Shown here piece by piece: positions 2,966 through 45,719 of a stretch of DNA of 64,000 nucleotides. Location: contig NZ_AZAJ01000001.1 of assembly GCF_000504205.1 (NCBI RefSeq), positions 372,001 to 436,000 on the forward strand. Reading direction: 5' to 3'. Numbering within the stretch: position 1 is the first letter of the stretch; each line of letters starts with the position of its first letter. The DNA comes from Methanolobus tindarius DSM 2278 (GTDB taxonomy: Archaea > Halobacteriota > Methanosarcinia > Methanosarcinales > Methanosarcinaceae). The notes beneath the pieces were generated by a model that was given only the letters and a program-made list of their open reading frames with translations, searched no databases and was not told where the DNA came from. A program made the position numbers and the translations under genes.

Positions 2966-3397
2966 ATTAGTACCACCATAATCAGCAAAAACCAAGTATA
3001 TTGAAACTTTATTTTCATCTGTATTTTTGATACTATATGAACATTGAATAATCAATAAGATCTGTTAGTTTATAAGATAAATAATATGATTTTCTTTATT
3101 GATAAAATCTTATTCTCCTGTCAACTGTACAATACTGATTGTTAATTCGTCCACAACATATACCTGTGCCATAAATAGTATTAAAAAAGTATAATCATTG
3201 ATTTTCACTCAATTGTATTCGCCTTTTCTAACCAAGAAAAGAATACATGGAAAACGGAAATTTATTAGTTGTAAATTCAATAAAAATTCGAACACATGTG
3301 TTGTATCGAAAATAATGAAGAGATACAAGGTAAATTAGATAAAGATTTACTAAAAATTAAGTTAAAAAGAAAACTGAATTAAATTAATAATTCAGTC
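2966..3397. other. Intergenic region upstream of the first propeller gene
   Basis: 432 bases without a convincing gene. It holds a hairpin terminator at its right end (3373-3396) for the upstream 1078-residue protein gene, and presumably the promoter of the 2965-1088 gene. It also contains the 14-mer CTTTTCTAACCAAG at 3223-3236, which recurs at 9500-9513 upstream of another surface gene. The rest is AT-rich with no ORF that has a ribosome binding site. Confidence 0.6.
3373..3396 (-). terminator. Hairpin terminator after the 1078-residue gene
   Basis: Perfect 8-bp arms ACTGAATT (3373-3380) and AATTCAGT (3389-3396) lie directly after the stop codon. On the minus strand they are followed by a T-rich run (TTTTCTTTTT). 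This fits a transcript end for the 6634-3398 gene. Confidence 0.6.
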
Positions 3398-6300
3398 TTA
3401 CCAGAACAATGGCAATGAGTATCTGGATTTCCAGTAAGAAACTATATACATTAACTCATTTTGCGATACCTTTTCATTTGTCTGTGGAATCAAATAATTG
3501 CTTTTCCAATAAGAAATAGCAGTCATAGCCTCCACCATTGACACCTGCTGTTCTGACGTAGAAGCTGGATCATTCCATGGGAACTGGTCACCTCCCACAC
3601 AGTAAAGATAGCCGCCATCTGTTCCGAAATATGCTTTACCCTGAGAAACAGCGACACCCTGCAGAATATAGCCAGTGTCCGGCGGATTGTACTCCCATAC
3701 AAGATTACCATCACCATCAAGACAGTATAACGTACCATTATTATTTGCTGATGTGAAGTAGATATATGGTGTATCATAATATGTTGAAACTACAGGAGAA
3801 GATTTCACACCACCTGATACGCTATATGACCATATTTCATCGCCCGTGCTGTCATCCAGACAGATCAATTCTCCCGGGTTATAATGTTCTCCCTGTCCGA
3901 CATACACTTTTCCATCATATACTGCAGGTGTAGAAGTACTGAAGATTTGCTCAGAACACCACCCCTGATCTGAAAAAGTTCCATCTGTTGAATCAAACAT
4001 TATTTTCCATACATAACCTGTGGGTTGTCCACTTTCGGATGTTGTGTATACATATCCATCGTTATACATCACAGAAGAACGAAATACCCCCGGATCAGCT
4101 TTTGCAAAAGATATTTCAGAGCTAACAGTACTATTAAGGGAAATTTCATCTGCAAGTTCTCCGGTTTTTCTGTCAAGACTTATGAGCCCACCTTCATGTG
4201 TGGAGAAAACAACATAATCACCAATAACAGAGGCCCCATTCCATATGAATCCCACTGTATCGGTAATTGGATATTTCCATAGAAGTGTGCCCAGATCATC
4301 ATAGCAATAATAATATTTCGTATCAGAGTCCAGTGAAATACCTTCTCCAAGGTAAATTCTGTGATCATAATATGTTATCGGGCACTCAAAACTGTCATCT
4401 GTAACGTTTACAGTCCACAGGAGATCACCTTCACTGGAGTTATAAGCATATAGATTACCTCCATATGTTGCAACAAAAATATTACCATCGCCATATGCAG
4501 GAGTTGCAGAATGCAAATCTGCACTTTCCCAGGTAAACTTGGACCATCCTGTATTATCTTCATATTCCCCGGTAGTCTTGTCATAGGCAAATACTGCACC
4601 ACTGGAAGATATTACATAGACCATATTCCCCTTAATTATAGGAGGAATATCAATACAACCATCAAAGTCATCTGCACTCCATTTAACTTTAACTGAATTA
4701 TCACATGGTGCATAAGCAGTTGTTATTCCATTATTGGAACTGTCACGCTGGAACTGTGACCAATCATTATCAGATAAAACCTCTACAGAAGTTTCAGGTT
4801 TTACTTCAATAGACTGTATCAGTTCATTGTTACTCTCATCTTCTTCTTCAACCACACTGTTAACATCGACAGTTATTGTCAGGTCAGAGTTTCCGGTGAC
4901 TGAAGGAAGCCAATTAAACACAACATCTGTGCTCTGGGCCGGACCGAGAGAAGAAATTGTTTCACTTGCGAGTACTGTTGTGCCTTCCTTTACTTCAACA
5001 GTGAATGGACCTGCAATCATATAACCCATATTTGACACAGTTGCAGTCAGTTCATATGGCTGGTTAATATAAACTGTAGAAATACTAAGTTCTGATGGAA
5101 CCAGATCAGGATTACCACTCTGAACCTCTACATCAATAGACATTTCATTGTTTGTAGTACTGATTTCAGTTATGCCATCGGAAGACGTGACTAAAGTGAT
5201 TTCATAGTTGCCTGATTCAGTAGGAGTCCAGTCAAAACTTACGGATTGGCTGCATGCTCCTCCAAGCACTGAAATAGTCTGACTGTCAATTTCATTACCA
5301 TTAACCTGTAAGGATACAGAAACATCGTCTACATATTTATTTCCAGCATTGCTTATAGTAGCTGTAATTTCATTGGAATAATAAGGATAGGCAATTCCTG
5401 TAGGTAATTCCAGATCACTTGCTACTATATCAATAATCGGTGTTGCTTCCGAATAAGCATACACTTTTCCACCTCTGAGTATAGTATAGATATTACCATC
5501 TGATATTGCAGTAGAGCCACCGGCTGCCTTCCATAATACATCACCTGTATATGCATTGAGTTCAACCAAACCTGTGAATCCACCAGTTGTTGTTGAACTG
5601 AATTGTGTACCAGCAAATACTTTTCCATCTGCTACAGAAACCGAATCAGTCCAGCCACCAGCGCCTTTGGTGTTCCATATGATCGAACCATTGCTAGCAT
5701 TTATACAATATACATTGTTAGGAGCTGAGACGTATATATTCCCATATGCTATTGCAGGGGTGGAATCAGTACTGCCAATATTAGTAGTCCAGATTACAGA
5801 ACCATCTTCCATACTAAGAGCACTTACTGAAGCTGACCCATAGAAATTAAATGCTGTAGCATACAACCGGCCATCGTCCCCAAGAGCAGCAGAGCCACAG
5901 GCACTATCAAAAGGCTGATCCCATATTTCCTCACCTGTTGTTGCGTCTACACAATAGATGTGACCACCAGGGGTTGCCAGATAATCCCAGCAGGTAAGGT
6001 AAATCTTTCCATCCTTATATGCCGGTGTACCCTGTGCATATGAGTAAGAATACGATTCATGATCTACGGTAAAATTCCATAATTCTCTTCCTGTTTCCTC
6101 GTCCAGACAATAATAATGCATATCATTCCAATCATTGCAGAATACTTTACCGTCAGCAATCAATGGACCACCATTACAGGACGCCATGTTCCCCGGAAGT
6201 TTGAAAATCCACTTTATAGTTCCGTTTTCAGCATAAACACATGTAGTGTTCAGACCTGTGGATGTAAAGACCATGCCATCGTGATAGGCAGGAGATGACC

Positions 6301-6634
6301 AGGAACCATACTGTATAGGATCTACAGGTGTACTCCACTGCACTTCACCGGTAATCTCATCAATTGCTTTAAGCTTATTATCAGCACAGTTTACGAATAC
6401 CATTCCTTCAGCGACAACCGGTGCGGAATCGCCAACTGCATTCACACTTACGTTCCACAACTCATCATATGCTTCTGGTAGTGATTCAGGATAAAATCCA
6501 GTATGTGCCATGTCTTTTTGGAATTGATGCCATGTGGTTGATCCACTTTCTTCAGCCAGTCCCACTGGTATAAAGAAAAGTGTCAGCATAACCACAGCCA
6601 TAATAGGAATTATGTTCTGTATTTTCTTTTTCAT
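3398..6634 (-). CDS. Secreted double PQQ-propeller protein with two CARDB domains and shared tail
   Basis: 1078 residues, ATG at 6634 with GGAGGT six bases upstream. In order: signal peptide (1-27), first PQQ-like propeller (35-395), two CARDB-type beta-sandwich domains (about 398-505 and 508-620; both show the VSLQVNG/EVKEGTTV and STTNNEM/DESNNEL type ends expected of CARDB), second propeller (621-1015), then the tail (about 1018-1078). The tail reads FPWNDP followed by two EAMTAISYWKS-like repeats. Each propeller starts with the same W-x-x-F-Q motif. CARDB domains are cell-adhesion-like beta-sandwiches; in archaea they are common in secreted proteins. The protein is probably an extracellular scaffold or adhesin. 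It is single-gene spaced, with its own terminator and a 350-base upstream region, so it need not be in an operon with its neighbours. Confidence 0.9.
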   Translation of the reverse strand: MKKKIQNIIPIMAVVMLTLFFIPVGLAEESGSTTWHQFQKDMAHTGFYPESLPEAYDELWNVSVNAVGDSAPVVAEGMVFVNCADNKLKAIDEITGEVQWSTPVDPIQYGSWSSPAYHDGMVFTSTGLNTTCVYAENGTIKWIFKLPGNMASCNGGPLIADGKVFCNDWNDMHYYCLDEETGRELWNFTVDHESYSYSYAQGTPAYKDGKIYLTCWDYLATPGGHIYCVDATTGEEIWDQPFDSACGSAALGDDGRLYATAFNFYGSASVSALSMEDGSVIWTTNIGSTDSTPAIAYGNIYVSAPNNVYCINASNGSIIWNTKGAGGWTDSVSVADGKVFAGTQFSSTTTGGFTGLVELNAYTGDVLWKAAGGSTAISDGNIYTILRGGKVYAYSEATPIIDIVASDLELPTGIAYPYYSNEITATISNAGNKYVDDVSVSLQVNGNEIDSQTISVLGGACSQSVSFDWTPTESGNYEITLVTSSDGITEISTTNNEMSIDVEVQSGNPDLVPSELSISTVYINQPYELTATVSNMGYMIAGPFTVEVKEGTTVLASETISSLGPAQSTDVVFNWLPSVTGNSDLTITVDVNSVVEEEDESNNELIQSIEVKPETSVEVLSDNDWSQFQRDSSNNGITTAYAPCDNSVKVKWSADDFDGCIDIPPIIKGNMVYVISSSGAVFAYDKTTGEYEDNTGWSKFTWESADLHSATPAYGDGNIFVATYGGNLYAYNSSEGDLLWTVNVTDDSFECPITYYDHRIYLGEGISLDSDTKYYYCYDDLGTLLWKYPITDTVGFIWNGASVIGDYVVFSTHEGGLISLDRKTGELADEISLNSTVSSEISFAKADPGVFRSSVMYNDGYVYTTSESGQPTGYVWKIMFDSTDGTFSDQGWCSEQIFSTSTPAVYDGKVYVGQGEHYNPGELICLDDSTGDEIWSYSVSGGVKSSPVVSTYYDTPYIYFTSANNNGTLYCLDGDGNLVWEYNPPDTGYILQGVAVSQGKAYFGTDGGYLYCVGGDQFPWNDPASTSEQQVSMVEAMTAISYWKSNYLIPQTNEKVSQNELMYIVSYWKSRYSLPLFW

Positions 6635-6984: not shown

Positions 6985-9378
6985 TTACTGGATCAACCAG
7001 AGGTGGATGACTTCCTGCATTCTGTCAGATGTCATTTCTGCACCAGTCTCTGGAATGTCTATCTTGTTTATCCAGCATTTGATTGCTTCCTGAAGTTCTG
7101 AGCCGGTTACAACTTCATCTTCTTCTGAACCGATATCATCCCATGGGTTCCAGTCCTCGGTAAGTTCGATGCTTGAATCACCAAGTACGTTGATATCATC
7201 GACATCCACGTTATTGACATAAGCAGATACAACACCGTCAAACTCGTAGTCATCGAGTGACTCACCGGCAGGGTACTGGATAACATATTTGATTGTCTTT
7301 GAGTCGCCTGCATTCATTGAACCTGCCCACATCCATTCATAAGTGTCAGGATCGTCAGATTCCCTGAACAGGGCACCATCTTCGTCTGCACTTGTAAGTA
7401 TCCAGTCGGAAGGTACTGTTTCGATAAGATAGAGTGCTTCCAGATACTCGTTGGCTGTGATTGTGACTGTGACAAGTGTTGAATTATACTGATCAGAGTC
7501 AACGTTGAAGGTCTGGTACTTAATTGTCCTCTGGGCATCGATTGGCGTCTCATCATTCACTGTGATGCTGACGGAATAGAATACCTTGTCAAGATCCTGG
7601 GCAAAGGTTTCTGTGTCCCATGGTGCGTAGTAGAAGCTGACAACGTCACCGTCTGAGACGGAGTTAAGACCAAGACCGTAGTCAGTAGCTTCACCGTTGA
7701 CATAGATTCCCCAGCTTGCTCCTGGCCAGGACTGTGCTTCGATTCCTCCGATGCTTTCAAGGTAGAAACTGCCATAATCAGCATATGAGTCATCGTTGAT
7801 GTAATATTCAACTCCTGATTCAAGAAGTGCACCAAGACATGTGCGCTGGCTGACAGGATAGGTCTCACTTGAATCTGATGCTGTAAAGTCAATGTCTGTC
7901 TCCATAACGGTTACGTTACCACTGTAGAGTTCGTTGAAAAGCTCAGATTCTATTTCACCATCAGTAAATGCAGCCATGAGAGGATATTCATCAGTACCTG
8001 ACGCACCAGGACTGTAAGATGAATCACCTATACCATCACCGTCAGCATCTGAACCTGTGTAGGTGTCGTAGTAGTTACCAAGGATACTGCTGTAGCTGTT
8101 GCCCTGATAAGTATAGTCGATAGCTTCAGGAGAGTGCCAGGTCAGGGACACTGTGGCACCGTTTGCCATATCTGTATTTACATACGGAGTAGAACAGTTG
8201 AAGAAGTTATTTTGATACACTGTGAAATCAGTTGCACCTGCAGCTGCAATGGGACTAGAACCAGTATATGTAGATGAAACAGTGTCAATTGTATTTCCTC
8301 TTATGACTACATCACCACCAACAGATATTGGTGCCACCATTCCAGCGTAATTTTCAATTACATTGTTTTCAATGACAGTAGTGGAGGTATCAGTAGCCAT
8401 TGTAATTAATCCCATATTAGAAGCCGAATCATAATTTAGGAAAGTATTACCGATAATTTCTGCATTATCAAAATCACCAAATACTATGCTTCCCATACCA
8501 TAGGCGCTCCCATCGAAAGTATTGTATTTTATGATGAGATTTCCATAGTTCAATCCATATACTTGTAAATTTATGTTACCATTATTAGAGGTAGAGGTAC
8601 AGTTTTCAACGTATATATTACCTTCAGCATAAAGACTTGTAATACCACAATCTGCCACAGTTAAATTTGTAACTTTATAATTAGTACTGCCAAAAACATG
8701 TACAGTCAATCCTTCTGCTTCGATGTTTTCTCCATCAAGCAATTTCTCTTGAAAAATAACAACATCCTTTCCATCACCTATTATGTGGACATTATCAGGT
8801 AATGAAACGTCATCTCCTGAATATGTACCTTCATGCCAGTAGATTGTTGCACCAGCAGCAGCATTCTCGATCTTGCTTTTATAATCGTCTCCGTCGTTAA
8901 TGTGAACAACACTTGCTGCTGCAATTGTAACGGAATTGTCACCTTTTGTGGTGTTACTGCACATATCAAAAGAACCACCAACGTCTTCCATTGCCTTTAC
9001 CAGACCAGTTATTGAATATGTGCCTGCGGTGGCGTTTTCAGGTACTGTAACATCATATACAATAGTTACAGGGACAGCAGGGTCCAGAGTTGAACCGGAT
9101 TCATCCACCCACGTATGATTTCCATCTTCTATGACATGAGAGAGTCCGTCATTGTCAATTGTCGTAAGGGTCCAGTAGTCCGGAAGGTCTTCCAGTATAC
9201 CTGCCGTTCTCATACTGGTGCCTGTTGCAGTCAGGCTGACTGTTACCTCAAAGGTTTCCCCCGGATTAACAGTACTTGTATTTATTGTTCGTTCACCCAC
9301 AACACCTGCCATTGCGGGAGATGCAAGAACCGCAACGCAGGCCAGCGTCATTAATAACATTAAAGAGAGTTTTCTCAT
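6985..9378 (-). CDS. Secreted beta-helix protein with DUF4430-like domain and shared tail
   Basis: The ATG at 9378 is chosen over 9417 because GGAGTG lies upstream and the signal peptide MRKLSLMLLMTLACVAVLA begins there. Of 797 residues: signal peptide (1-24), N-terminal module like that of the gene at 1088 (25-155; RTINTSTVNPGETFEV), NosD-type beta-helix (160-475, ending GNYYDTYTGSDADGDGIGD and YPLM), DUF4430-like domain (490-593; WGIYVNGEATDYG, SDGDVVSFYYAPW), a second copy of the N-terminal type module (600-740; RTIKYQTFNVDSDQ) and the tail (740-797; NPWDD, then LQEAIKCWI and MQEVIHLWL repeats). DUF4430 is the fold of the transcobalamin beta-domain, so ligand binding is conceivable but unproven. 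Probable secreted scaffold. Confidence 0.88.
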   Translation of the reverse strand: MRKLSLMLLMTLACVAVLASPAMAGVVGERTINTSTVNPGETFEVTVSLTATGTSMRTAGILEDLPDYWTLTTIDNDGLSHVIEDGNHTWVDESGSTLDPAVPVTIVYDVTVPENATAGTYSITGLVKAMEDVGGSFDMCSNTTKGDNSVTIAAASVVHINDGDDYKSKIENAAAGATIYWHEGTYSGDDVSLPDNVHIIGDGKDVVIFQEKLLDGENIEAEGLTVHVFGSTNYKVTNLTVADCGITSLYAEGNIYVENCTSTSNNGNINLQVYGLNYGNLIIKYNTFDGSAYGMGSIVFGDFDNAEIIGNTFLNYDSASNMGLITMATDTSTTVIENNVIENYAGMVAPISVGGDVVIRGNTIDTVSSTYTGSSPIAAAGATDFTVYQNNFFNCSTPYVNTDMANGATVSLTWHSPEAIDYTYQGNSYSSILGNYYDTYTGSDADGDGIGDSSYSPGASGTDEYPLMAAFTDGEIESELFNELYSGNVTVMETDIDFTASDSSETYPVSQRTCLGALLESGVEYYINDDSYADYGSFYLESIGGIEAQSWPGASWGIYVNGEATDYGLGLNSVSDGDVVSFYYAPWDTETFAQDLDKVFYSVSITVNDETPIDAQRTIKYQTFNVDSDQYNSTLVTVTITANEYLEALYLIETVPSDWILTSADEDGALFRESDDPDTYEWMWAGSMNAGDSKTIKYVIQYPAGESLDDYEFDGVVSAYVNNVDVDDINVLGDSSIELTEDWNPWDDIGSEEDEVVTGSELQEAIKCWINKIDIPETGAEMTSDRMQEVIHLWLIQ

Positions 9379-9635
9379 AGATTTTTTCACTCCGTTTATT
9401 TGTACTCCAACTTCCACCGGACTTTGATAGAAAAAGATTCTCAGAGTATGATTTGCACTGAGAAAGGAATTCGATTGATATCTTATTCGATGATGTCTGC
9501 TTTTCTAACCAAGGCCGGAATATGAATAATATGTGAGAAATCAATGCTATATAATACACCCAATAATGGAAACATATGTTATTCTTTATAGTAATAACAA
9601 ATGAATAATTAATAGAAGAAGAAAAGAAAAAAATG

Positions 9636-11366: not shown

Positions 11367-13052
11367 TCACATTGGGTATTTAGACTTCCAGTATGAAACA
11401 ATAAGCATTATCTCATCCTGAGATATCCTGTGATCAGTATCAGGAATAACATAACCGGATTTCCAGTAAGAAATCGCAGTCATCACCTCATTCTGAGAAA
11501 TAAGATTTCCTGACTCAGAATCAGGATCATTCCATGGATTCCAGTCAACACTAATACAATCCTCAACTGTTCTTGTATGTATGAAAACAGAATTTCCTGC
11601 CGTTAATGAAACATTGTAACTTCCGGATTTATTATAGGTATGCACCGGGTCTTTAATACCATAATCTTCAATTCCGTCACCATCCACATCCCATGACCAT
11701 GAAGTAGCATCTGAAGAAGTATCCGTGAACTGCACAGTTAAAGGAAAATCTCCGTAAGTAACATTTACTTCAAAATCCGCAAACACATGTTGCTCTTTAA
11801 CACTTTGACTATTGGCAAGCCCAAACAGGTAGCCACCATCATTTCCAAAGAAAAGCCATCCGTCAGAAATAACGACTCCCTGCAGGATATAATTATTCAT
11901 CCCATTTGATGGCAGATAGTTCCATTGTTCCATAGCTTCAGTATTACCCGGATAGTCTTTTAGACAATAGACAGTTCCATCTGCACAATTAGTTGTAAAA
12001 TAAATATATACCTCACCGTCACCGTCATCATACGCCCTTGAAATTGCAGGAGATGCCTTAACCCCGGCATTTGTTTCAAAATTCCATATCTCACTCAGGT
12101 CAGATTCATCCAGACAATAAAGTTTTCCCTCTGTCCAGCCGCCACAACCAACATAGACCCTGCCATTAAAAAACGAAGGAGTTGAAGTACATGCACCATC
12201 CAATTGAGCATAATTACTATCATACACATTGAAAGAACCAGTCTGATCAAAACCTATAGAATAACAATAACCACCTTTCGAAGTTAAAAAAAGCTTTTCT
12301 GAATCAGAATCATAGCTCACAGAAGATTTGAACTCTCCTGCATCATCTATAGAGAACATCTCACTGACATTAACCTCATCTATTAAAGAACCGTCATCCT
12401 TGTCCAAGGAAGTAAGATAACCTTTGGAATCCACAAATATTACAAAGTCCTCTACAACAGCAGGACCTGCCCAGTAATATCCACCTCCTGATGCTGCATC
12501 CTTTGACCAGCATTCATCTCCTGTATCCGTATAACAATAGAAAGTTCCATCATTACCATATTTATCCAAACAGTCCCCAAAATATATACGATGAGAATCA
12601 TAAACTATTGGAGTATACAACCAGTTGCCAATTTGATCAGTTTCCCATATAAGCTCTCCATTCAAAGAATCAAGAGCATACACTTTACCGTTCTCTCTTG
12701 GAATGAACAAAGTACCATTACCATATGCAGGTGAACCCAACTGATAGCTAATTTGCTCAATAGTAGTGCTCCACACCACACTTCCACTGTTTTTTTGAAT
12801 TGCAGATACATTACCACCTGGAAACACCATGTATAATATGTCATCAACGACAACAGAAGGGCAATCAACAGCTTCACCTGAAAAAAGCCTGTTCCACGAC
12901 ATACTTGAGGGAGTTGTAATAGGTGCCCTATCACAAGTTAAACCACTATTACAACTATCTTTCTGGAACTCTGTCCAGTCAGAAGCAAATGAAATATCTG
13001 CCATTGTCAGAGATGCGATCAACAGACATGACAGAAATACAACTAACTTCAT
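11367..13052 (-). CDS. Secreted PQQ-like propeller with PKD domain and shared tail
   Basis: The ATG at 13052 is preferred (GGTGGC six bases upstream, then MKLVVFLSCLLIASLTMA); the ATG at 13064 overlaps that ribosome binding site. Of 561 residues: signal peptide (1-24), PQQ-like propeller (25-395, opening WTEFQKDSCNSGLT, last blade YILQGVVISDGWLFFGNDGG), PKD domain (about 410-495; SWSWDVDGDGIEDYG and VHTYNKSGSYNVSLT), then the tail (505-561): NPWNDPDSESG, EVMTAISYWKSGY, EIMLIVSYWKSKY. The tail DNA is very similar to that of the next gene upstream. PKD domains are common in archaeal surface-layer proteins. Only 48 bases separate its start from the stop of the upstream gene, so the two may be co-transcribed. 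Confidence 0.9.
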   Translation of the reverse strand: MKLVVFLSCLLIASLTMADISFASDWTEFQKDSCNSGLTCDRAPITTPSSMSWNRLFSGEAVDCPSVVVDDILYMVFPGGNVSAIQKNSGSVVWSTTIEQISYQLGSPAYGNGTLFIPRENGKVYALDSLNGELIWETDQIGNWLYTPIVYDSHRIYFGDCLDKYGNDGTFYCYTDTGDECWSKDAASGGGYYWAGPAVVEDFVIFVDSKGYLTSLDKDDGSLIDEVNVSEMFSIDDAGEFKSSVSYDSDSEKLFLTSKGGYCYSIGFDQTGSFNVYDSNYAQLDGACTSTPSFFNGRVYVGCGGWTEGKLYCLDESDLSEIWNFETNAGVKASPAISRAYDDGDGEVYIYFTTNCADGTVYCLKDYPGNTEAMEQWNYLPSNGMNNYILQGVVISDGWLFFGNDGGYLFGLANSQSVKEQHVFADFEVNVTYGDFPLTVQFTDTSSDATSWSWDVDGDGIEDYGIKDPVHTYNKSGSYNVSLTAGNSVFIHTRTVEDCISVDWNPWNDPDSESGNLISQNEVMTAISYWKSGYVIPDTDHRISQDEIMLIVSYWKSKYPM

Positions 13053-13099
13053 ACAAGCCACCATTTTTCACAATATTTTTCATTACGCTCTGCTTAAAA

Positions 13100-15979
13100 T
13101 TACATTGAATAATTACACTTCCAGTTGGAAATGATAAGCATGATCTCATCCTGTGATATACTATGACCAGTCTCAGGAATGACATAATTAGATTTCCAGT
13201 AGGAAACAGCAATCATAACCTCATCCTGAGAAATATAACTTCCCCGATCTGAATCAGGATCATTCCACGGATTCCAGTCAGCTACTGTAATAAAACCTAC
13301 TTTTGACTCCATATCATATCCACCATGATTGCTTACATTAAGACTTACAGTATAATTTTCCTCTTCTGAATAAACATGGACAGGATTCTGTTCTGTAGAC
13401 AATGAAGTACCATCACCAAAGTCCCATTCCCATGAATCCGGGTTGTTGGTTGAAATATCAGAGAACTGTACAGTCAGACTTATGTTACCTGAAGTTACGT
13501 TTGCAGTAAAATCACATTCCGGCACAGGGATAACAGTTGCAACCCATGGAATATAGTCTACATTATCATTTACTGCATTTCCAACACCAGATGGATTGGT
13601 AGTTTCATGGTAAGGACCTGAATCATCACCCCACCAGTTGTAGGTAGCATTAATCTCTTCCAGTGCATGGTTCACAACACCACCGTATGCTGAACCATCT
13701 GTACCACTATATGTCTGGACGTTATCGGTTATGTTCGCTCCGGTGATCACTACGTTTATAGGCCCTGCATTGTTCTTATCAGGTTCACCAATACGTATAC
13801 CTCGTTCGTTGAATGAATAGTTACCACCATTGATCTGCACACCATCAAGAACTGCATCATTAGGTGAAATATAACTGCCATCATCTCTTGCCTTGATCAT
13901 AATTCCTGCACCTTCATTATATCCAAGACCATTGTTAGTAACAGTCAGGTTATTGAACACAAGGTTGGCATAGTTACCTGCCTTCAGATTGATATCAAAA
14001 CCACCATTCCATATCTGGTTCCAGAAATCGCTCTTACCGTTATTATCAACAAGAACATTATTGAAAGTTGAATCTGACAGCTTTTCAACATAGATACCTT
14101 TATAATCATTTTCACTGAAACTGCTATCATCTACAGTGACAAACTGCACATTACTGGTTTCGTTTATGTCAACGGTTTTAGCAAAGTACCATCCATAATC
14201 ACAGTTATCAAATGTGGAATCCTTCACTACAAAATAACTAAGGCTTGCATCAGTTGCAACCTTAAGGCCTATCTCATTCTCAACTGTGTGAGTGGTTGCA
14301 CCAACCACATTAACATTGTCAAACTCAATATAAGAAACACTGTCATTATTGTGTACCTCAAAACCGTAAACACCGTCAGGTACTACCCTTATGTTTTTTA
14401 TTAAGACAGTATCTTCTTCAGATGCTCCTGAAGCTGATAATTTGACAATTCTTTCATCCACATTCTTTTGCAATATGGAATCCACAAGCGGGTCATCTCC
14501 GCTTCCGCTACCAACTAAAGATACCTTCCTATTGACATCAATATTCTCGCTGTAAGTACCAGGCAACAGATAAATGGTGTCAACAGGGTCTGCAACTTCT
14601 ATGGCATCCTGAATGCTTCCGTAAGGAGTAACATAGTATGTCATTGGTGTTGTATCAAATTCAGCTCCAAGCCATGGAGAATACACTGCATTGTCAGTGA
14701 CATTATCCCCGGTTCCGACTGAATTGGTAGTTTCATGATAAGGGCCGGTAGCATCTCCCCACCAGTTAAGTGCTGCATTAACTTCCGTAATATTAACATC
14801 GACATACAGACCGGAATCACCATTTCCAGCGATGTTATTATTGTGAATCCCTACATTGACCGGATCAGGAATATCATATTCAGGATACCATACCTCATAA
14901 TCATATACACTTATTCCATCGTAGAGATTATTCAGAATATCATTGTTTTCAATATCAATAGTGTCCACACCATTGGCAATATCAATACCATATTCATTGT
15001 TCTCTACAAGATTGTTAGTAACCTTAATGTCTGAACATGTGTTTTCCCATGGAGAGCCGTATAATGCTACAGGAAAATCAGTCACACTGATAGCAACTTC
15101 ATTATCATGGACATAATTGGCATCAACTGTCACATTGCTTGTATCAACAACCATAATAGCAGTTCCTGACCAGTCTGTTCCCGGCCATCCGCAATGTGAT
15201 ACATTGTTACCCTGAATAAGTCCACTTGCAGCGTAACCAAATTGTATACCATTTGGTGCCCATGTAATATTGTCACCATTATACGGGCCGATAACAGTGT
15301 TGCCTATTACTTCATTATCACCGGAGTAAAGTCCGATACCTCCACGGGCAAACTGATCTATCAGATTATCCTGGATAGTAATGTTCATGGAACCATACCC
15401 AAGAATACCAAAAGTTTCCTTTCCATCTACCAGAATATTGACAAAATTGTTATCGTGGATAGAAGAAAGTATTTCACTATTATCCCGATTAACGTTCCTG
15501 CATATTACACTGCTCCACCTCTGTGATGGTGCAAAATTATTTGCATCAATAGTAAAACCGGACATTTCAACAGTAATGCACTCTGAACCATATACCGTAT
15601 CATTAGAACTTGAATATGTTCCACCCAAAAGTCCTACTACATATTCAAATGTCTTCGAAGACTCAGCAATAGTTATTATTTCAGGAGACTGCGGACATTT
15701 TATCGTAGCACCTTCAGGTGCTTGCAGTTTGACGCTTTTATTAACAGTAATACTTTCTTCATATATGCCTGGCATCACAGAAATTGTATCACCCGGCAAT
15801 GCATCATCTATTGCATCCTGTATCGTAGGATATACAACAATAGTACTTGCTACAGAAACACCACCTGAATTCTCTGCATAATTACAATCTACTACTAAAG
15901 TAGATGCTTCAGCAAATCCAATACACATAAAAATGATAGATAGAGTAAATACTACCCAAATAACTTTCCCAATTTTCAT
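13100..15979 (-). CDS. Secreted double beta-helix protein with PKD domain and shared tail
   Basis: Start at the ATG at 15979, with GGTGG upstream and a signal peptide following; an ATG at 16027 lacks these. Of 959 residues: signal peptide (1-27), first NosD-type beta-helix (about 40-440, introduced by PTIQDAIDDALPGDTI and closed by LNWWGDATGPYH), second beta-helix (445-805, introduced by GSIQDAIEVADPVDTIYLLP and closed by YNWWGDDSGPYH), PKD domain (820-898; WEWDFGDGTS), tail (900-959; NPWNDPDSDRG then EVMIAVSYWKSNY and EIMLIISNWKCNY). The two helices look like an internal duplication. Likely a fibrous extracellular protein; carbohydrate processing is possible for this fold but not shown. Confidence 0.9.
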   Translation of the reverse strand: MKIGKVIWVVFTLSIIFMCIGFAEASTLVVDCNYAENSGGVSVASTIVVYPTIQDAIDDALPGDTISVMPGIYEESITVNKSVKLQAPEGATIKCPQSPEIITIAESSKTFEYVVGLLGGTYSSSNDTVYGSECITVEMSGFTIDANNFAPSQRWSSVICRNVNRDNSEILSSIHDNNFVNILVDGKETFGILGYGSMNITIQDNLIDQFARGGIGLYSGDNEVIGNTVIGPYNGDNITWAPNGIQFGYAASGLIQGNNVSHCGWPGTDWSGTAIMVVDTSNVTVDANYVHDNEVAISVTDFPVALYGSPWENTCSDIKVTNNLVENNEYGIDIANGVDTIDIENNDILNNLYDGISVYDYEVWYPEYDIPDPVNVGIHNNNIAGNGDSGLYVDVNITEVNAALNWWGDATGPYHETTNSVGTGDNVTDNAVYSPWLGAEFDTTPMTYYVTPYGSIQDAIEVADPVDTIYLLPGTYSENIDVNRKVSLVGSGSGDDPLVDSILQKNVDERIVKLSASGASEEDTVLIKNIRVVPDGVYGFEVHNNDSVSYIEFDNVNVVGATTHTVENEIGLKVATDASLSYFVVKDSTFDNCDYGWYFAKTVDINETSNVQFVTVDDSSFSENDYKGIYVEKLSDSTFNNVLVDNNGKSDFWNQIWNGGFDINLKAGNYANLVFNNLTVTNNGLGYNEGAGIMIKARDDGSYISPNDAVLDGVQINGGNYSFNERGIRIGEPDKNNAGPINVVITGANITDNVQTYSGTDGSAYGGVVNHALEEINATYNWWGDDSGPYHETTNPSGVGNAVNDNVDYIPWVATVIPVPECDFTANVTSGNISLTVQFSDISTNNPDSWEWDFGDGTSLSTEQNPVHVYSEEENYTVSLNVSNHGGYDMESKVGFITVADWNPWNDPDSDRGSYISQDEVMIAVSYWKSNYVIPETGHSISQDEIMLIISNWKCNYSM

Positions 15980-16139
15980 AAAACCACCATCTAAAATTAA
16001 GTTTGTAAAATAAATTTCATTTTTCAAGTGGGTTTAACAGAACATCTTATTTAAACATGGAAAAGTCAATAAGATATGTTATATGTAGAGCTTATAAAAT
16101 GAGATTCAACACTTCTAAATCTGAATCCAAAATAAAACT

Positions 16140-40628: not shown

Positions 40629-41528
40629 ATGATAAAGAAATTCACCTCCCTCTTCCCGGTATGGGCTATTCTGCTTTCAGTTGTGGCTTTCATCTATCCT
40701 TCCATTTTTTCACCATACAAAAGTGCCATAACCCCGCTTCTGGGAGTTGTGATGTTTGGCATGGGCATCACCCTTTCTGCAAATGATTTCCTGCTGGTGC
40801 TCAAAAGACCAAAAGTCATTGTGCTCGGAACCGCATTGCAATATATTCTGATGCCACTTCTCGCATTCATAATTTCATACTTACTAAATCTCCCTCTTGA
40901 GATTATGGCAGGAATGGTGCTACTTGGAGCCTGCCCCGGTGGAACTGCATCAAATGTGATATGCTATCTTGCAAAAGGAGACGTAGCTCTGTCAATCACA
41001 CTTACATCGGTTTCCACACTACTTGCATTCATCCTGACACCTGCACTCACATGGCTTTACATCGGACAGGCAGTGCCTGTTGCAGTTGGTAGTATGATGC
41101 TGAGTATCGTTAAAATAGTACTTGTGCCCGTGGCACTTGGAATTATCCTGAACACATTCTTTGATAAACATATCGAGCGTTTCAGGCATGCATTCCCTGC
41201 ATTATCTGTAGCCACAATCGTGTTCATCATTGCAATAATAATCGCCCTGAACAAAGACAGCATCCTCGTTGCCGGAAAACTGGTGATAGTTGCTGTCATC
41301 CTTCACAATGGATTCGGGCTTGCCAGTGGTTATGTGCTTTCAAAGAAACTGGGACTTGATGAAAAAGATGCAAGAACAATTGCAATTGAGGTCGGAATGC
41401 AGAATTCCGGGCTGAGCGTTGCACTTGCAGTGAAATATTTTTCTGCGCTGGCGGGTCTTCCGGGTGCTCTGTTTAGTATATGGCATAATATATCGGGATC
41501 GTTTTTGGCATATAGGTTTAGTAAGTGA
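40629..41528 (+). CDS. Bile acid:sodium symporter (BASS) family transporter
   Basis: 299 residues, ATG at 40629 with AGGAAC upstream. About ten hydrophobic helices. The BASS signature GACPGGTASNVICYLAKGDVA sits near residues 96-118 and the second crossover EVGMQNSGLSVALAVKYF near 257-275. Family members move organic anions (bile acids, pyruvate, pantoate and others) with sodium; the archaeal substrate is unknown. Its 3' end converges on the giant surface gene. Confidence 0.9.
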   Translation: MIKKFTSLFPVWAILLSVVAFIYPSIFSPYKSAITPLLGVVMFGMGITLSANDFLLVLKRPKVIVLGTALQYILMPLLAFIISYLLNLPLEIMAGMVLLGACPGGTASNVICYLAKGDVALSITLTSVSTLLAFILTPALTWLYIGQAVPVAVGSMMLSIVKIVLVPVALGIILNTFFDKHIERFRHAFPALSVATIVFIIAIIIALNKDSILVAGKLVIVAVILHNGFGLASGYVLSKKLGLDEKDARTIAIEVGMQNSGLSVALAVKYFSALAGLPGALFSIWHNISGSFLAYRFSK

Positions 41529-41560: not shown

Positions 41561-41588
41561 AGGAAACGAACAGTTAAATTCGTTTCCT
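41561..41588. terminator. Shared hairpin at the convergent gene ends
   Basis: 10-bp arms AGGAAACGAA (41561-41570) and TTCGTTTCCT (41579-41588) between the BASS gene and the giant surface gene, overlapping the last codons of the latter. Works as a terminator in either direction; the T-rich flank favours the minus transcript's end less clearly. Confidence 0.55.
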
Positions 41589-44500
41589 GAAAATTGAATA
41601 TCCTACAATTCCACCTATCAGCAAAATAGACAATGATCCAATTGCTATCCAGTTTTTGATAGTACTAGTCTGTTCTGCAGGTACTTCATTTACATCAGAA
41701 GTATCATCTATTGTAGATTTTGTTGCTTTTAGTTCATCTTCAACTGTAACTTTCTCAGCAGAAGTACCTACGATTGCAAATGGTGAAAATCCAGGAGTAC
41801 TTGCCTCAAAATGAACGTATTTATCATCTTCACCTATTTTCTGGGTGTCAAGATAACTCCATTCATCATCAGAATACCTACACAATCTGATAGTAGTCTC
41901 AGCAATATCATAATCTTTAATCCACTCTTTCTCAACTTTGAATCCAACAACCGAATTGGCAATATTATCTGAACTTGAAAATCCAGATTTTCCAACCCAT
42001 ATATTGACATTGCAGTAAACTGTATCCGGTGCATTCTCATTCACAAGTGCAGACTTTCCGTTCAGCATCTCAATTGTAGAGAATATCTTGCCCCAGTTCC
42101 TTGAAGCCTCGAAATTGATGTATTCGATGGCATTTAACTCATTATTAAATTCATAAGAGGTTACACCACCTTTTGATACAAATTCAGAGAGAACATCCTT
42201 GTAAGCAATGTTCTCAAATTCTTCACCGGTGGTTCCACCGCCTCCACCACTGCCGCCGCCTGAAGAACTAGTAGTAGTTGTAGATGAGCCTGCATCTGAT
42301 TCTTCATCTTCTTCCGGAATGATTACTTCATTGTCTATAGACGAATTTCCCTGTACTATAAAAGGATAATATCTTACAGTACTACTATTAGCTACTCTTA
42401 ACTTTATATTGTCAGTTATGTTAACTACAGCACCCTTTGATAGGAAAATTGAATCTTCATTTTTCATAACAATTGAATGAGCCGAGTAGCTGGTAATTTC
42501 CATATTATTGAAACTACCCCCATCTCTAAATGTTACGAACTGATCCGATATTTGGAACGAACCTTCAACGAAGACACCTTTCTTTTCTCCAGAAACAATG
42601 ATGTCTTTGAAATGAACTGCTATTAGTGGCACATTTGTATTGTTGCCAATATCGAGTGAATATGTGTAATCGCTAGAGGAGGAAACTATGCCATTATCAA
42701 GTTCCTCTCCATCTTTTGTAAGACTTAAAAATATTTCATTGGTGCTTGTATTAATTTCAGTAATATCAAGCACATAGTTTTCCTCAAGAATTAGGGATGA
42801 ATCAGAATAAATCAAAAAACTATCATCATCGTCTATGAGTAGCTTAGAAAGACAACCGTGTGACAACAAACTTACTTCATCAAGACCATCAATATCTGTG
42901 TCATCTGTATAACCTGCAAAGTATTTCTCTGCCATAAAGCCTATTATCTGGAATTCTCCCCAGTCTGAATGTTCGAACTCTATAGATGCGGGTGTACTTG
43001 TATAAATGAGGTCACCATCATCGATGTTTCTGCCAGATATATCTGTTAATTCAAGAGTTTCTGTCTGAATACCTTCATCGATATCATAGTAGAAACCTTC
43101 GAAGTTAAGAGGAGTCCATGTAAGAAGAGTATCATCCTCAGAAACTGTACCACGGAGTTCGTATGTCTCATTTTCAGATATATTCAATGATGGAGCAAAC
43201 CTAAGGTCATAATCATCAGCAACTATGAGATATATATTATTCATCAGGTTTATTATACCTCCTCTATATAGAGAGATACTATCCTCATTTTCCATTTCAA
43301 TCAAGTCAGAACTTATGGAGGTTAATTCCATGTTACCATATGTATTTCCGTCGTAAAGTTCCAAGTAATCTTCAGATATTTGGAATACACCTTCTATAAT
43401 AACACCGGATAATCCATTATCAGTAAATATTCCATTAAGATGGACAGCAATTGTTGCAACATCGTCAACATCACCAAGGTCAACCTTATAGACATAATCA
43501 TCATTGCTTGAAACTATGGCACTATCAAGGTTGATATTGCCTTTGGAAAGAACGACATATACACTATTCCCTTTCTCATCGACCTCAACTATATTAAGTG
43601 AGTAACCATTTTCAAGTTTAAGAGAAGAAGATTCATTAACAGTTTTCTGTCCATCATTATCAATTAGAATCCTCGATAACTGACCTGATGACAGCATACT
43701 TACTTTTTCAACATCATCAATTTCAGTTTCATCGGTGTATCCTGCAAAGTACGTTTCCGCCATGAAAGAGATTAATTGACATGATCCCCAGTCATTATGT
43801 TCAAAATCAGTTTCTATAGGTCTAGTCTGGTAAACAATATCCCCCTCTCCAAGAGAACGGTTTATATTGTGAATAGTCATGGTTTCGGAACTGAGTCCTG
43901 AGTCAAGATCATAGAAAAAGCCAGAAAAACTTCTTGCATCCCAAGTGTAGATTGTAGATTGTCCAGCGTTTTCATCCCAAATTCTGTTACCAGTGTAATG
44001 GGTCTGTGGATAAACTGCGATGGTTGTGACATCAGAATTACCTTCTCCATCACTGTTTGTCACTTTAAGAGTTACATCATAGGAACCGATTGAAGCAAAT
44101 GTGTATACTGGGTTTTGATCAGTTGAATCAATGATACCGTCATTGTCAAAATCCCAGCACCATGCTGTAGGACTATTTGCTGAAGTATCAGTAAATTCAA
44201 CAGTGAGAGGAACAGTGCCTTCTACAACATCCGTAGTGAATGAAGCAACAGGAAGATTTGATACTGGTTCATTAACTGTTATGGTCTGAATGGCAATATC
44301 GGATTTACTTCCATTAAATACTGTTAAGGAAACACTGTAAGTACCCACATTGGTAAAAACATGAATTGGGTTCTTGTCAGTTGAAATGGATCCATCTCCA
44401 AAATCCCATTCATATGCATCAGCATTGATAGAGATGTCAGTGAAAGCTACAGACAAAGGAGTGTAACCGGAAGTTACATTTGAACTGAATGAAGCAACAG

Positions 44501-45719
44501 GCATCACATCTCCAGTACTCCATGATGCAAGTGGGAGATAATCGATATTATACATGGACCCATATAAAGAATACCTTATATCACAGATACCATCACCGTC
44601 CGCATCAGTGCATCTCTGACTGAATCCCTTACCATCAGGCCTTGCCCAGTAGTTGCCTCCAAGATAGGGGCCACCAACGATATTAGTGCCTGCGGTTTTA
44701 TTAACATTCCATTCATTGATGGTGGGACAATAGGATAAGGGTTCATAAATTCTGTAGTTTGCGGTGTTTTTAAAGAAATTGTTATAGATTATGTTGTCTA
44801 GGGAAGAATACACATAGATGCCGTACTCACCGTTGTTTGATACTGAGTTGTCCACTATCTTATTATAAAAGGAACTATACAACTTTATTCCATTGTTTGC
44901 ATTGTTGGAAGCGATATTTCCTTTCAGCATGTTGTTATTACTGGTATAAAACAGGTATATACCGTCTTCTGAATTGTCTACTGCTCTGTTATTCACAAGT
45001 ATGTTGTCACTGGAAGAACTTAGCTCGATACCATCAGAATTGTCTTTTGCCGTATTGTTCACAAGTGTGTTATCGTTGGAGTCAACTAGAATTATACCCC
45101 AATAACTATTGCTTGTTGCAATGTTGTCTGTTAGTGTGTTGTTAGTAGAATGATAGATACGTATGCCGAACTTGTTGTTTGCTGCTATGTTGTTTGTGAG
45201 CGTGATGTTGGTGGAATAGTACGGAATTATACCGTCGTAACTATTGTTCGCTACATTGTTATGTGTCACTATGTTGTTTCTGCAAGAATCCAGATAGATG
45301 CCCCATGTATTGTTTACTGCATTGACATTTGTCACCGTGTTGTTGGAGGAATCCAAATATATCCCTGCTTTGGAATGCCCTGTAAACCCACTTACATAAA
45401 AACCATCTATTGTCACTCCATCAGCAGTGACATTAAAAACATGATTATCTGCAGATGCAGCAATAACATGCGTAAGCTCGGCTCCGTCTGTTGACATGAT
45501 ATTCAGTTGTTTTGCCACATCAACGTTCTCATGATATGTACCAGGATAAACGAGGATAGTATCACCTGAATTTGCATTGTTAATTGCATCCTGTATTAAA
45601 GAATAATTTCCATTTTCAGCACTTACAGTCAAAACAGCTGCATCAACGGGATTTTGCATTAAAATAAAGAAAGTCAAAATAAGAATAGTAACAATTGAGA
45701 CGTTTTTTAAAAATTTCAT
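41574..45719 (-). CDS. Giant surface protein: beta-helix, PKD x2, S-layer duplication x2, PGF-pre-PGF, membrane anchor
   Basis: The ATG at 45719 is used (GGTGGT seven bases upstream, signal peptide KNVSIVTILILTFFILM follows); an ATG at 45767 is further up. About 1381 residues: signal peptide; NosD beta-helix (35-390) with many short N-rich repeats and GNYWARPDGKGF; two PKD domains (about 405-490, YEWDFGDGS; 495-580, WCWDFDNDG); two copies of the Methanosarcina S-layer duplication domain, DUF1608/TIGR01567 type (about 590-860 and 865-1130), both with AE[TK]YFAGYTD; a Ser/Thr/Gly linker; PGF-pre-PGF domain (1170-1330, STPGFSPFAIVG); a final transmembrane helix (about 1355-1377) with FRKRI after it, but no PGF-CTERM motif. 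S-layer duplication domains build the lattice of the Methanosarcina cell wall, so this is probably a wall-embedded protein displaying the beta-helix outward (inference). Confidence 0.9.
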   Translation of the reverse strand: MKFLKNVSIVTILILTFFILMQNPVDAAVLTVSAENGNYSLIQDAINNANSGDTILVYPGTYHENVDVAKQLNIMSTDGAELTHVIAASADNHVFNVTADGVTIDGFYVSGFTGHSKAGIYLDSSNNTVTNVNAVNNTWGIYLDSCRNNIVTHNNVANNSYDGIIPYYSTNITLTNNIAANNKFGIRIYHSTNNTLTDNIATSNSYWGIILVDSNDNTLVNNTAKDNSDGIELSSSSDNILVNNRAVDNSEDGIYLFYTSNNNMLKGNIASNNANNGIKLYSSFYNKIVDNSVSNNGEYGIYVYSSLDNIIYNNFFKNTANYRIYEPLSYCPTINEWNVNKTAGTNIVGGPYLGGNYWARPDGKGFSQRCTDADGDGICDIRYSLYGSMYNIDYLPLASWSTGDVMPVASFSSNVTSGYTPLSVAFTDISINADAYEWDFGDGSISTDKNPIHVFTNVGTYSVSLTVFNGSKSDIAIQTITVNEPVSNLPVASFTTDVVEGTVPLTVEFTDTSANSPTAWCWDFDNDGIIDSTDQNPVYTFASIGSYDVTLKVTNSDGEGNSDVTTIAVYPQTHYTGNRIWDENAGQSTIYTWDARSFSGFFYDLDSGLSSETMTIHNINRSLGEGDIVYQTRPIETDFEHNDWGSCQLISFMAETYFAGYTDETEIDDVEKVSMLSSGQLSRILIDNDGQKTVNESSSLKLENGYSLNIVEVDEKGNSVYVVLSKGNINLDSAIVSSNDDYVYKVDLGDVDDVATIAVHLNGIFTDNGLSGVIIEGVFQISEDYLELYDGNTYGNMELTSISSDLIEMENEDSISLYRGGIINLMNNIYLIVADDYDLRFAPSLNISENETYELRGTVSEDDTLLTWTPLNFEGFYYDIDEGIQTETLELTDISGRNIDDGDLIYTSTPASIEFEHSDWGEFQIIGFMAEKYFAGYTDDTDIDGLDEVSLLSHGCLSKLLIDDDDSFLIYSDSSLILEENYVLDITEINTSTNEIFLSLTKDGEELDNGIVSSSSDYTYSLDIGNNTNVPLIAVHFKDIIVSGEKKGVFVEGSFQISDQFVTFRDGGSFNNMEITSYSAHSIVMKNEDSIFLSKGAVVNITDNIKLRVANSSTVRYYPFIVQGNSSIDNEVIIPEEDEESDAGSSTTTTSSSGGGSGGGGGTTGEEFENIAYKDVLSEFVSKGGVTSYEFNNELNAIEYINFEASRNWGKIFSTIEMLNGKSALVNENAPDTVYCNVNIWVGKSGFSSSDNIANSVVGFKVEKEWIKDYDIAETTIRLCRYSDDEWSYLDTQKIGEDDKYVHFEASTPGFSPFAIVGTSAEKVTVEDELKATKSTIDDTSDVNEVPAEQTSTIKNWIAIGSLSILLIGGIVGYSIFRKRI

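Follow-up and report, generated by a model that had tools for sequence, protein, structure and literature searches.

The window analysed here, a stretch of 64,000 nucleotides of Methanolobus tindarius DSM 2278 (positions 372,001 to 436,000 of contig NZ_AZAJ01000001.1), carries at 41574-45719 a gene for a chimeric surface protein of 1381 residues, in which a pair of S-layer domains is combined with a beta-helix, two PKD domains, a PGF-pre-PGF domain and a C-terminal membrane helix. The best explanation of this protein, to which we give about an even chance, is that of an accessory surface protein which evolves fast and derives from domain shuffling, that is, a membrane-anchored rod with the pair lying loosely in, or passing through, the cell wall. 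The order of the domains, their origin from different sources, the fold of the pair, the membrane helix and the purifying selection acting on the gene can be read directly from the comparisons and models presented below, whereas the position in the wall, the outward display and the ligand are what we infer from this layout.

Domain architecture and predicted structure

The frame is open over all 1381 codons, and the domain composition given by a first-pass annotation of the window agrees in its coordinates with the Pfam and NCBIfam matches. The Pfam search finds the S-layer family PF07752 in two stretches (E=2e-161) together with NosD/Beta_helix and two PKD domains, while the NCBIfam search finds TIGR01567, likewise in two stretches, with 411.9 bits (cut-off 121.9), and TIGR04213, the PGF-pre-PGF domain, with 186.3 bits (cut-off 28). 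Both regions named as S-layer duplication domains (DUF1608/TIGR01567) exceed the TIGR01567 cut-off singly, with 216.1 and 211.9 bits. The PGF-pre-PGF domain is found in 21 places in the source genome. The parts of the gene are listed below, with residue numbers referring to the 1381-aa protein and coordinates to the window.

41574..45719, reverse strand: whole gene, chimeric S-layer-domain surface protein, 1381 aa (open frame, domain matches, orthologs in conserved synteny in three further Methanolobus genomes)
45639..45719, reverse strand: signal peptide, residues 1-27 (hydrophobic N-terminus, kept in the orthologs)
44505..45638, reverse strand: right-handed beta-helix of NosD/CASH type, residues 28-405 (PF05048, E=8e-54; PF13229; fold neighbours)
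44265..44504, reverse strand: PKD domain 1, residues 406-485 (PF18911/PF00801; alignment)
44007..44252, reverse strand: PKD domain 2, residues 490-571 (Pfam; part of the block in common with a 1240-aa paralog)
43215..43973, reverse strand: S-layer domain 1, residues 583-835 (PF07752, 2-259 of 259; TIGR01567, 211.9 bits; model confidence, pLDDT, >90)
42357..43163, reverse strand: S-layer domain 2, residues 853-1121 (TIGR01567, 1-257 of 259; match to structure 3u2g)
42225..42356, reverse strand: hinge, acidic and then Ser/Thr/Gly-rich, residues 1122-1165, where the wall tile has an acidic tether (sequence)
41766..42224, reverse strand: PGF-pre-PGF domain, residues 1166-1318 (TIGR04213, 1-153 of 153, 186 bits)
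41577..41654, reverse strand: C-terminal transmembrane helix with RKRI end, residues 1356-1381, without PGF-CTERM motif (hydropathy scan; TIGR04126 search)

In the alignment PKD domain 1 is missing from the M. psychrotolerans ortholog. A spacer separates the PGF-pre-PGF domain from the membrane helix, and the protein ends in this plain helix followed by FRKRI. A profile search with TIGR04126 found no PGF-CTERM motif in the protein, even at E 0.1, and although archaeosortase A (ArtA) is encoded in the genome, processing of the window protein by it is rejected for the absence of this signal.

Structure prediction of both duplication domains, which had been proposed as a check, gives a confident AlphaFold2 model (pLDDT mostly >90), for which Foldseek retrieves 3u2g, the structure of the Methanosarcina tile MA0829, with E=1e-20 and a template-modelling (TM) score of 0.86 over the target; phmmer against the Protein Data Bank (PDB) finds the same structure from the sequence of the window protein (2e-28). 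On the predicted model, then, the pair is a true homologue in which the tile fold is retained, and the match is not one of chance. The PGF-pre-PGF domain is modelled poorly, with pLDDT of about 30-70.

Relation to the wall tile and origin of the pair

The source genome (G000 in what follows, a single 3.15-Mb contig; other G numbers denote further Methanolobus genomes, with 27 in the set) contains 13 frames with S-layer-domain matches. The window protein is not the wall tile, because an MA0829-type gene of 684 aa exists separately in the genome (G000:C1:1809444-1811498), its product having a Glu-rich tether and ending in PGF-CTERM. Comparison with this main S-layer gene, as recommended at first pass, places the closest relatives of the pair in another class of paralogs: its identity is 29% to the own tile, 63% to a paralog of 1269 aa and 55% to one of 873 aa. 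The codon bias of the tile is the strongest among the genes compared, with a codon adaptation index (CAI) of 0.785, partly self-referential since the reference set consists of the tile and the thermosome, and an effective number of codons (ENC) of 36.5; the corresponding values for the window gene, 0.589 and 47.3, are those of ordinary genes, and this codon adaptation points to a probably low expression. Two short proteins of the same genome (L161:1336-1932 and L157:618-1907) have a partial S-layer profile match and one membrane helix each.

In a tree of 90 S-layer pairs, obtained by a short search with no bootstrap, the window pair and its three orthologs form one clade (SH-like approximate likelihood-ratio test, SH-aLRT, 100), nested within the Methanolobus members of a class of proteins of about 1240 aa, with SH-aLRT values of 97 and 96 at the enclosing forks. 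Direct descent of the pair from the wall tile is rejected by this placement. The class (about 1070-1400 aa, with an N-terminal extension, the pair and a membrane helix) occurs in Methanolobus, Methanococcoides, Methanomethylovorans, Methanosarcina, Methanohalophilus, Methanosalsum, Methanothrix and Methanoperedens, and corresponds, as assigned by length and layout and not by alignment, to MA0068, Mbar_A1034, MM1364, Mbur_2129 and Mthe_0149, proteins of 1113-1304 aa with two DUF1608 domains, a signal peptide and a transmembrane segment (PMC3361143 Table 1). Of these, MA0068 (1167 aa, two DUF1608) reaches about 1.8% of the tile transcript and was detected on the surface by ConA-enrichment proteomics (PMC3361143). 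Because the class is spread across the genera of the Methanosarcinales, the combination of an N-terminal ectodomain with an S-layer pair is old, and the window protein represents a late variant of it in which both ends have been exchanged.

The chimeric nature of the gene is apparent from its similarity to other proteins, block by block. Residues 460-1157 are in common, at 58%, with a 1240-aa paralog (G000:C1:1009258-1011360), and the nearest non-orthologous relatives differ according to the part considered: 54-56% for the beta-helix, 58-60% for the second PKD domain with the pair (1240-aa class) and 68% for the PGF-pre-PGF end. The Ig-like C-terminal part, the helix and the GGWTVE..A tail of the 1240-aa class were not found in the window protein.

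Proposed working and constraint on the pair

We propose that the block of PKD domain and S-layer pair of a conserved minor S-layer protein of the MA0068 class would have been duplicated, that the copied block would have gained a new N-terminus (beta-helix and PKD) and a new C-terminus (hinge, PGF-pre-PGF domain and membrane helix), and that the chimera would then have entered the junction between a symporter gene and a HAD gene. In the resulting protein the C-terminal helix would serve as the anchor in the membrane, the PGF-pre-PGF domain and the hinge would bridge the space beneath the wall, the pair would lie at the level of the wall, as an infrequent guest or a segment of passage, and the part projecting outside would consist of the PKD domains and the beta-helix, the latter of which may bind there (or modify) polysaccharide or a partner surface. 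The order of the domains, with the S-layer domains N-terminal to PGF-pre-PGF and the membrane helix last, fits such a succession of membrane, gap, wall and outside.

The selective constraint on the gene was assessed from the ratio of non-synonymous to synonymous substitution rates (dN/dS). For the whole fusion gene this is about 0.28-0.31, which indicates purifying selection and not decay. For the pair it is 0.28-0.34, as against 0.085 in the 1240-aa class, 0.066 in the 873-aa class and 0.16 in the tile for the same two genomes, the latter three comparisons being near saturation (dS >1.3); the pair of the fusion is thus 2-5 times less constrained than the true wall paralogs. Short divergence is not the cause of the raised ratio, since the genes flanking the fusion, at the same dS (0.37-0.64), have dN/dS of 0.03-0.12. 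Within the fusion the ratio is lowest in PGF-pre-PGF (0.12-0.22), followed by the beta-helix (0.20-0.27), and higher in S-layer domain 1 (0.32-0.46), an order which is reversed in the 1240-aa parent class, where the pair is most constrained and the N-terminal extension least (0.70).

Several observations weigh against the explanation of a rod with its pair in or through the wall. When whole clades are left out in turn, the fusion clade departs from 14.8 of 100 near-invariant columns per row. Most clades of comparable breadth lose 0.2-2.2, and the deeply branching clades of Methanothrix and Methanoperedens about 8. Glycines account for half of the losses in the fusion clade, and all four orthologs differ at seven columns, of which four are glycines kept also in the tile; the residues lost in the window pair include G651, G728, G851 and G973. 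Lost invariant positions and a raised dN/dS are the opposite of what tight lattice packing predicts, and anchoring of the protein in the lattice is weakened by them; because near-invariant positions have been lost, the pair may have no lattice contact at all. Furthermore, the rate comparisons are complicated by patches of very low synonymous divergence (residues 301-660), indicative of recombination, and the beta-helix/PKD model, built on three sequences, is confident only in the middle of the beta-helix, at about residues 95-300, and poor outside it.

Alternative explanations

The first-pass annotation had taken the pair as a means of fixing a large fibrous ectodomain into the wall lattice. 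On such a view the pair would take the place of one tile in the hexagonal array, and the wall, not the membrane, would hold the protein. What stands of this claim is a true DUF1608 pair with the tile fold, located between the ectodomain and the membrane-side domain; moreover, the S-layer-cytochrome fusions of anaerobic methanotrophic archaea (ANME) have been interpreted likewise, and the parent class is found in the envelope. Lattice anchoring is therefore plausible, but the difference in dN/dS between the pair and the wall paralogs or the flanking genes, the loss in all four orthologs of invariant glycines, the identity of only 29% to the own tile and the low codon adaptation all weaken it, and the C-terminal membrane helix already supplies an anchor. 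On balance we regard a locked lattice position as rather unlikely, if still to be taken seriously.

Alternatively, the pair could be a rigid spacer only, in a membrane-anchored ectodomain without contact to the lattice, as would be consistent with a relaxed constraint on a retained fold, with a membrane helix that is enough as an anchor, and with the four, six or eight S-layer copies in related PGF-pre-PGF proteins, which resemble the multiplication of a spacer. Yet a large ectodomain has to cross the wall somehow, and every fusion of this kind that was found has its S-layer domains membrane-distal to PGF-pre-PGF, as expected for a module at wall level. We consider a pure spacer unlikely.

The beta-helix itself could be an epimerase- or lyase-type enzyme that remodels surface polysaccharide, the remainder of the protein being merely its holder. 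Among its Foldseek neighbours are the epimerases AlgE4 and AlgG, PL6 and Pel9A, as well as phage tailspikes and the adhesin PfbA, and enzyme profiles of the NosD/AlgG type do match. These matches are, however, far under the curated cut-offs (TIGR04247, NosD, 120 of 300 bits; NF038177, AlgG, 34 of 700 bits), only the NosD Pfam repeat model being passed; non-enzymes such as PfbA are among the fold neighbours, and no catalytic motif is established. We find the enzymatic alternative improbable. The modelled likeness to alginate epimerases, phage tailspikes and PfbA suggests a binding of polysaccharide or of a surface. Finally, a decaying duplicate without function, which would agree with the patchy occurrence (4 of 27 genomes) and the raised dN/dS, has a very low probability, a pseudogene being rejected in view of full-length frames in all four species and a dN/dS well below 1.

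Distribution and insertion site

Full orthologs of the fusion are present in four of the 27 Methanolobus genomes (G000, G025, G022 and G007), in each case between the symporter and HAD genes, which border the insertion site in the window as judged from synteny and empty sites:

40629..41528, forward strand: left flank, symporter-type membrane protein of 299 aa
45888..46592, forward strand: right flank, HAD-type phosphatase

In seven genomes without the fusion the site is empty and the two flanking genes are direct neighbours, their matched coding regions being about 36 bp apart, while G023 has a different 1-kb gene at the junction and G005 has other frames (cf. L202, L203). Being empty or filled by different genes according to the genome, the junction is a variable site. 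The dS values of symporter, fusion and HAD genes are similar (0.37-0.64) and lower than those of certain other genes compared between the same genomes; together with near-identical patches within the fusion (proportion of synonymous differences, pS, 0.02-0.16 over residues 301-660 against G025), this points to probable recombination between species at the locus.

The tail-bearing proteins of the window

Five proteins of the window (1088-3055, 3398-6634, 6985-9417, 11367-13064 and 13100-16027) have in common a C-terminal tail of 56-63 aa, which contains a duplicated helical motif with dockerin-like spacing and has neither calcium loops nor a membrane helix. These are secreted proteins of beta-propeller, beta-helix and PKD types. 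The suggestion that they might dock to the S-layer fusion found no support. Among the 27 genomes a model of the tail finds 61 places in six (G000, G004, G005, G007, G022 and G023); fusion and tails occur together in three genomes, the fusion only in one and the tails only in three. The co-occurrence has a Fisher p of 0.025, which is uncorrected for kinship, and the overlap lies mostly in a few close genomes. Given the mismatch of the two distributions, there is no general support for docking of the tails to the window protein.

Recurrent fusions of S-layer domains

Other Methanolobus proteins combine S-layer and PGF-pre-PGF domains, including proteins of 2078-2463 aa with the order beta-helix, PKD, four S-layer domains and PGF-pre-PGF in five genomes, proteins with four S-layer domains, PKD and PGF-pre-PGF, and six- and eight-copy forms. 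All such fusions found have the S-layer domains N-terminal to PGF-pre-PGF and the membrane helix last. The S-layer pairs of those tested, L158 and L162, the latter on long branches, fall with the tile in the tree, apart from the window pair, and both proteins have the same Gly-rich hinge as the window protein; to judge by this grouping, the order beta-helix, S-layer, PGF-pre-PGF and membrane helix was assembled separately, at least twice. Repeated shuffling of S-layer domains has hence occurred in methanogens, not only in the cytochromes of ANME. The tile, the 870-aa and 1240-aa classes and the fusions form a natural set for asking which parts of the tile are needed for lattice packing, and the positions kept in all wall classes but lost in the chimera are direct candidates for mutagenesis.

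Giant Methanolobus proteins (L229, L230, L236 and L239) contain six to nine consecutive S-layer domains, and three of these proteins end in PGF-pre-PGF; a protein of 1413 aa (L240:2183-6424, G021) has the reversed order, with the S-layer domain first and the beta-helix after it.

Cytoplasmic proteins with an S-layer domain

A side find of greater interest than the fusion itself is that of two proteins of the source genome with one C-terminal S-layer domain, no signal peptide and no membrane helix:

L164:821-3007 (G000:C1:3024320-3026506), also L221:2568-11178: KAP NTPase with C-terminal S-layer domain
L160:2556-3986 (G000:C1:2481055-2482485), also L222:9131-11314 and L223:9162-10661: TIR-like protein with C-terminal S-layer domain

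The former, of 728 aa, is a KAP P-loop NTPase (PF07693, E=4e-38) with QatA- and PifA-like matches in PADLOC and NCBIfam, and the latter, of 476 aa, matches a TIR effector of PADLOC (E=2e-8). Relatives are a KAP form in G022, a TIR-like form in G024 and a KAP form with pentapeptide repeats in G026; this third form (L224, G026:C1:2645500-2664500) is a frame of 906 aa in which the KAP NTPase is followed by the pentapeptide repeats and then by the S-layer domain. A locus that adjoins a deoxyhypusine-synthase-like gene, with a schlafen-AlbA_2 gene nearby, is occupied by the TIR form in G000 and G024 and by the KAP form in G022, and effectors thus appear to be exchanged at one locus on a common S-layer domain. 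The KAP-form copy of G000 lies between 151-bp inverted repeats, and since Cas1 and a family-B DNA polymerase lie between the same repeats, it is situated inside a casposon-like element.

The S-layer parts of these proteins are under purifying selection (dN/dS 0.21-0.25), and the one in the KAP protein has about 52% identity with the tile of its own genome. According to a review (PMC12369344), the S-layer is the target of a Methanosarcina virus. We hypothesise that the KAP and TIR-like proteins could act in defence as decoys or sensors, in which case an immune protein would bear a replica of the site on which the virus presumably lands. More generally, and tentatively, the S-layer domain of Methanolobus might be a general 'own wall' module, serving on the outside as a replaceable adapter by which different ectodomains are seated at the wall, as in the window protein and several relatives of separate assembly, and inside, on the KAP and TIR-like proteins, as a decoy or sensor for virus proteins aimed at the S-layer.

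Comparison with known systems

The window protein has in common with the MA0829 tile (MSTP family; 3u2g/3u2h) the tandem DUF1608 domains, their fold, the signal peptide and a C-terminal helix, but differs in its low codon adaptation, in the large added domains and in lacking the acidic tether and PGF-CTERM, the direct acidic tether, about 60 residues long, to the PGF-CTERM helix being replaced by the Ser/Thr/Gly hinge and PGF-pre-PGF. With the MA0068-type class, its direct parent by the tree, it shares an N-terminal ectodomain, PKD, the S-layer pair and a membrane helix; the FN3/PKD-like N-terminus, the Ig-like C-terminal part and the cytoplasmic amphipathic tail of that class are all absent, and the beta-helix, the hinge and PGF-pre-PGF are present instead. 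The Methanolobus proteins of about 2090 aa (L162, L225-L228) have the same module order but four S-layer domains of tile type, a PGF-like C-terminus and a separate assembly. Literature searches on PKD/S-layer fusions in Methanolobus and on PGF-pre-PGF returned nothing on the architecture of the window protein. The MHC-A and MHC-B S-layer-cytochrome fusions of ANME, which have been proposed to cross the wall (PMC9012536), likewise hold an S-layer pair inside a large fusion with a C-terminal membrane helix, whereas the window protein has no haem motifs and carries a beta-helix and PKD domains as its cargo. Fusions of S-layer domains are already known from ANME, and it is in this cargo, and in both ends with respect to the parent class, that the window protein differs.

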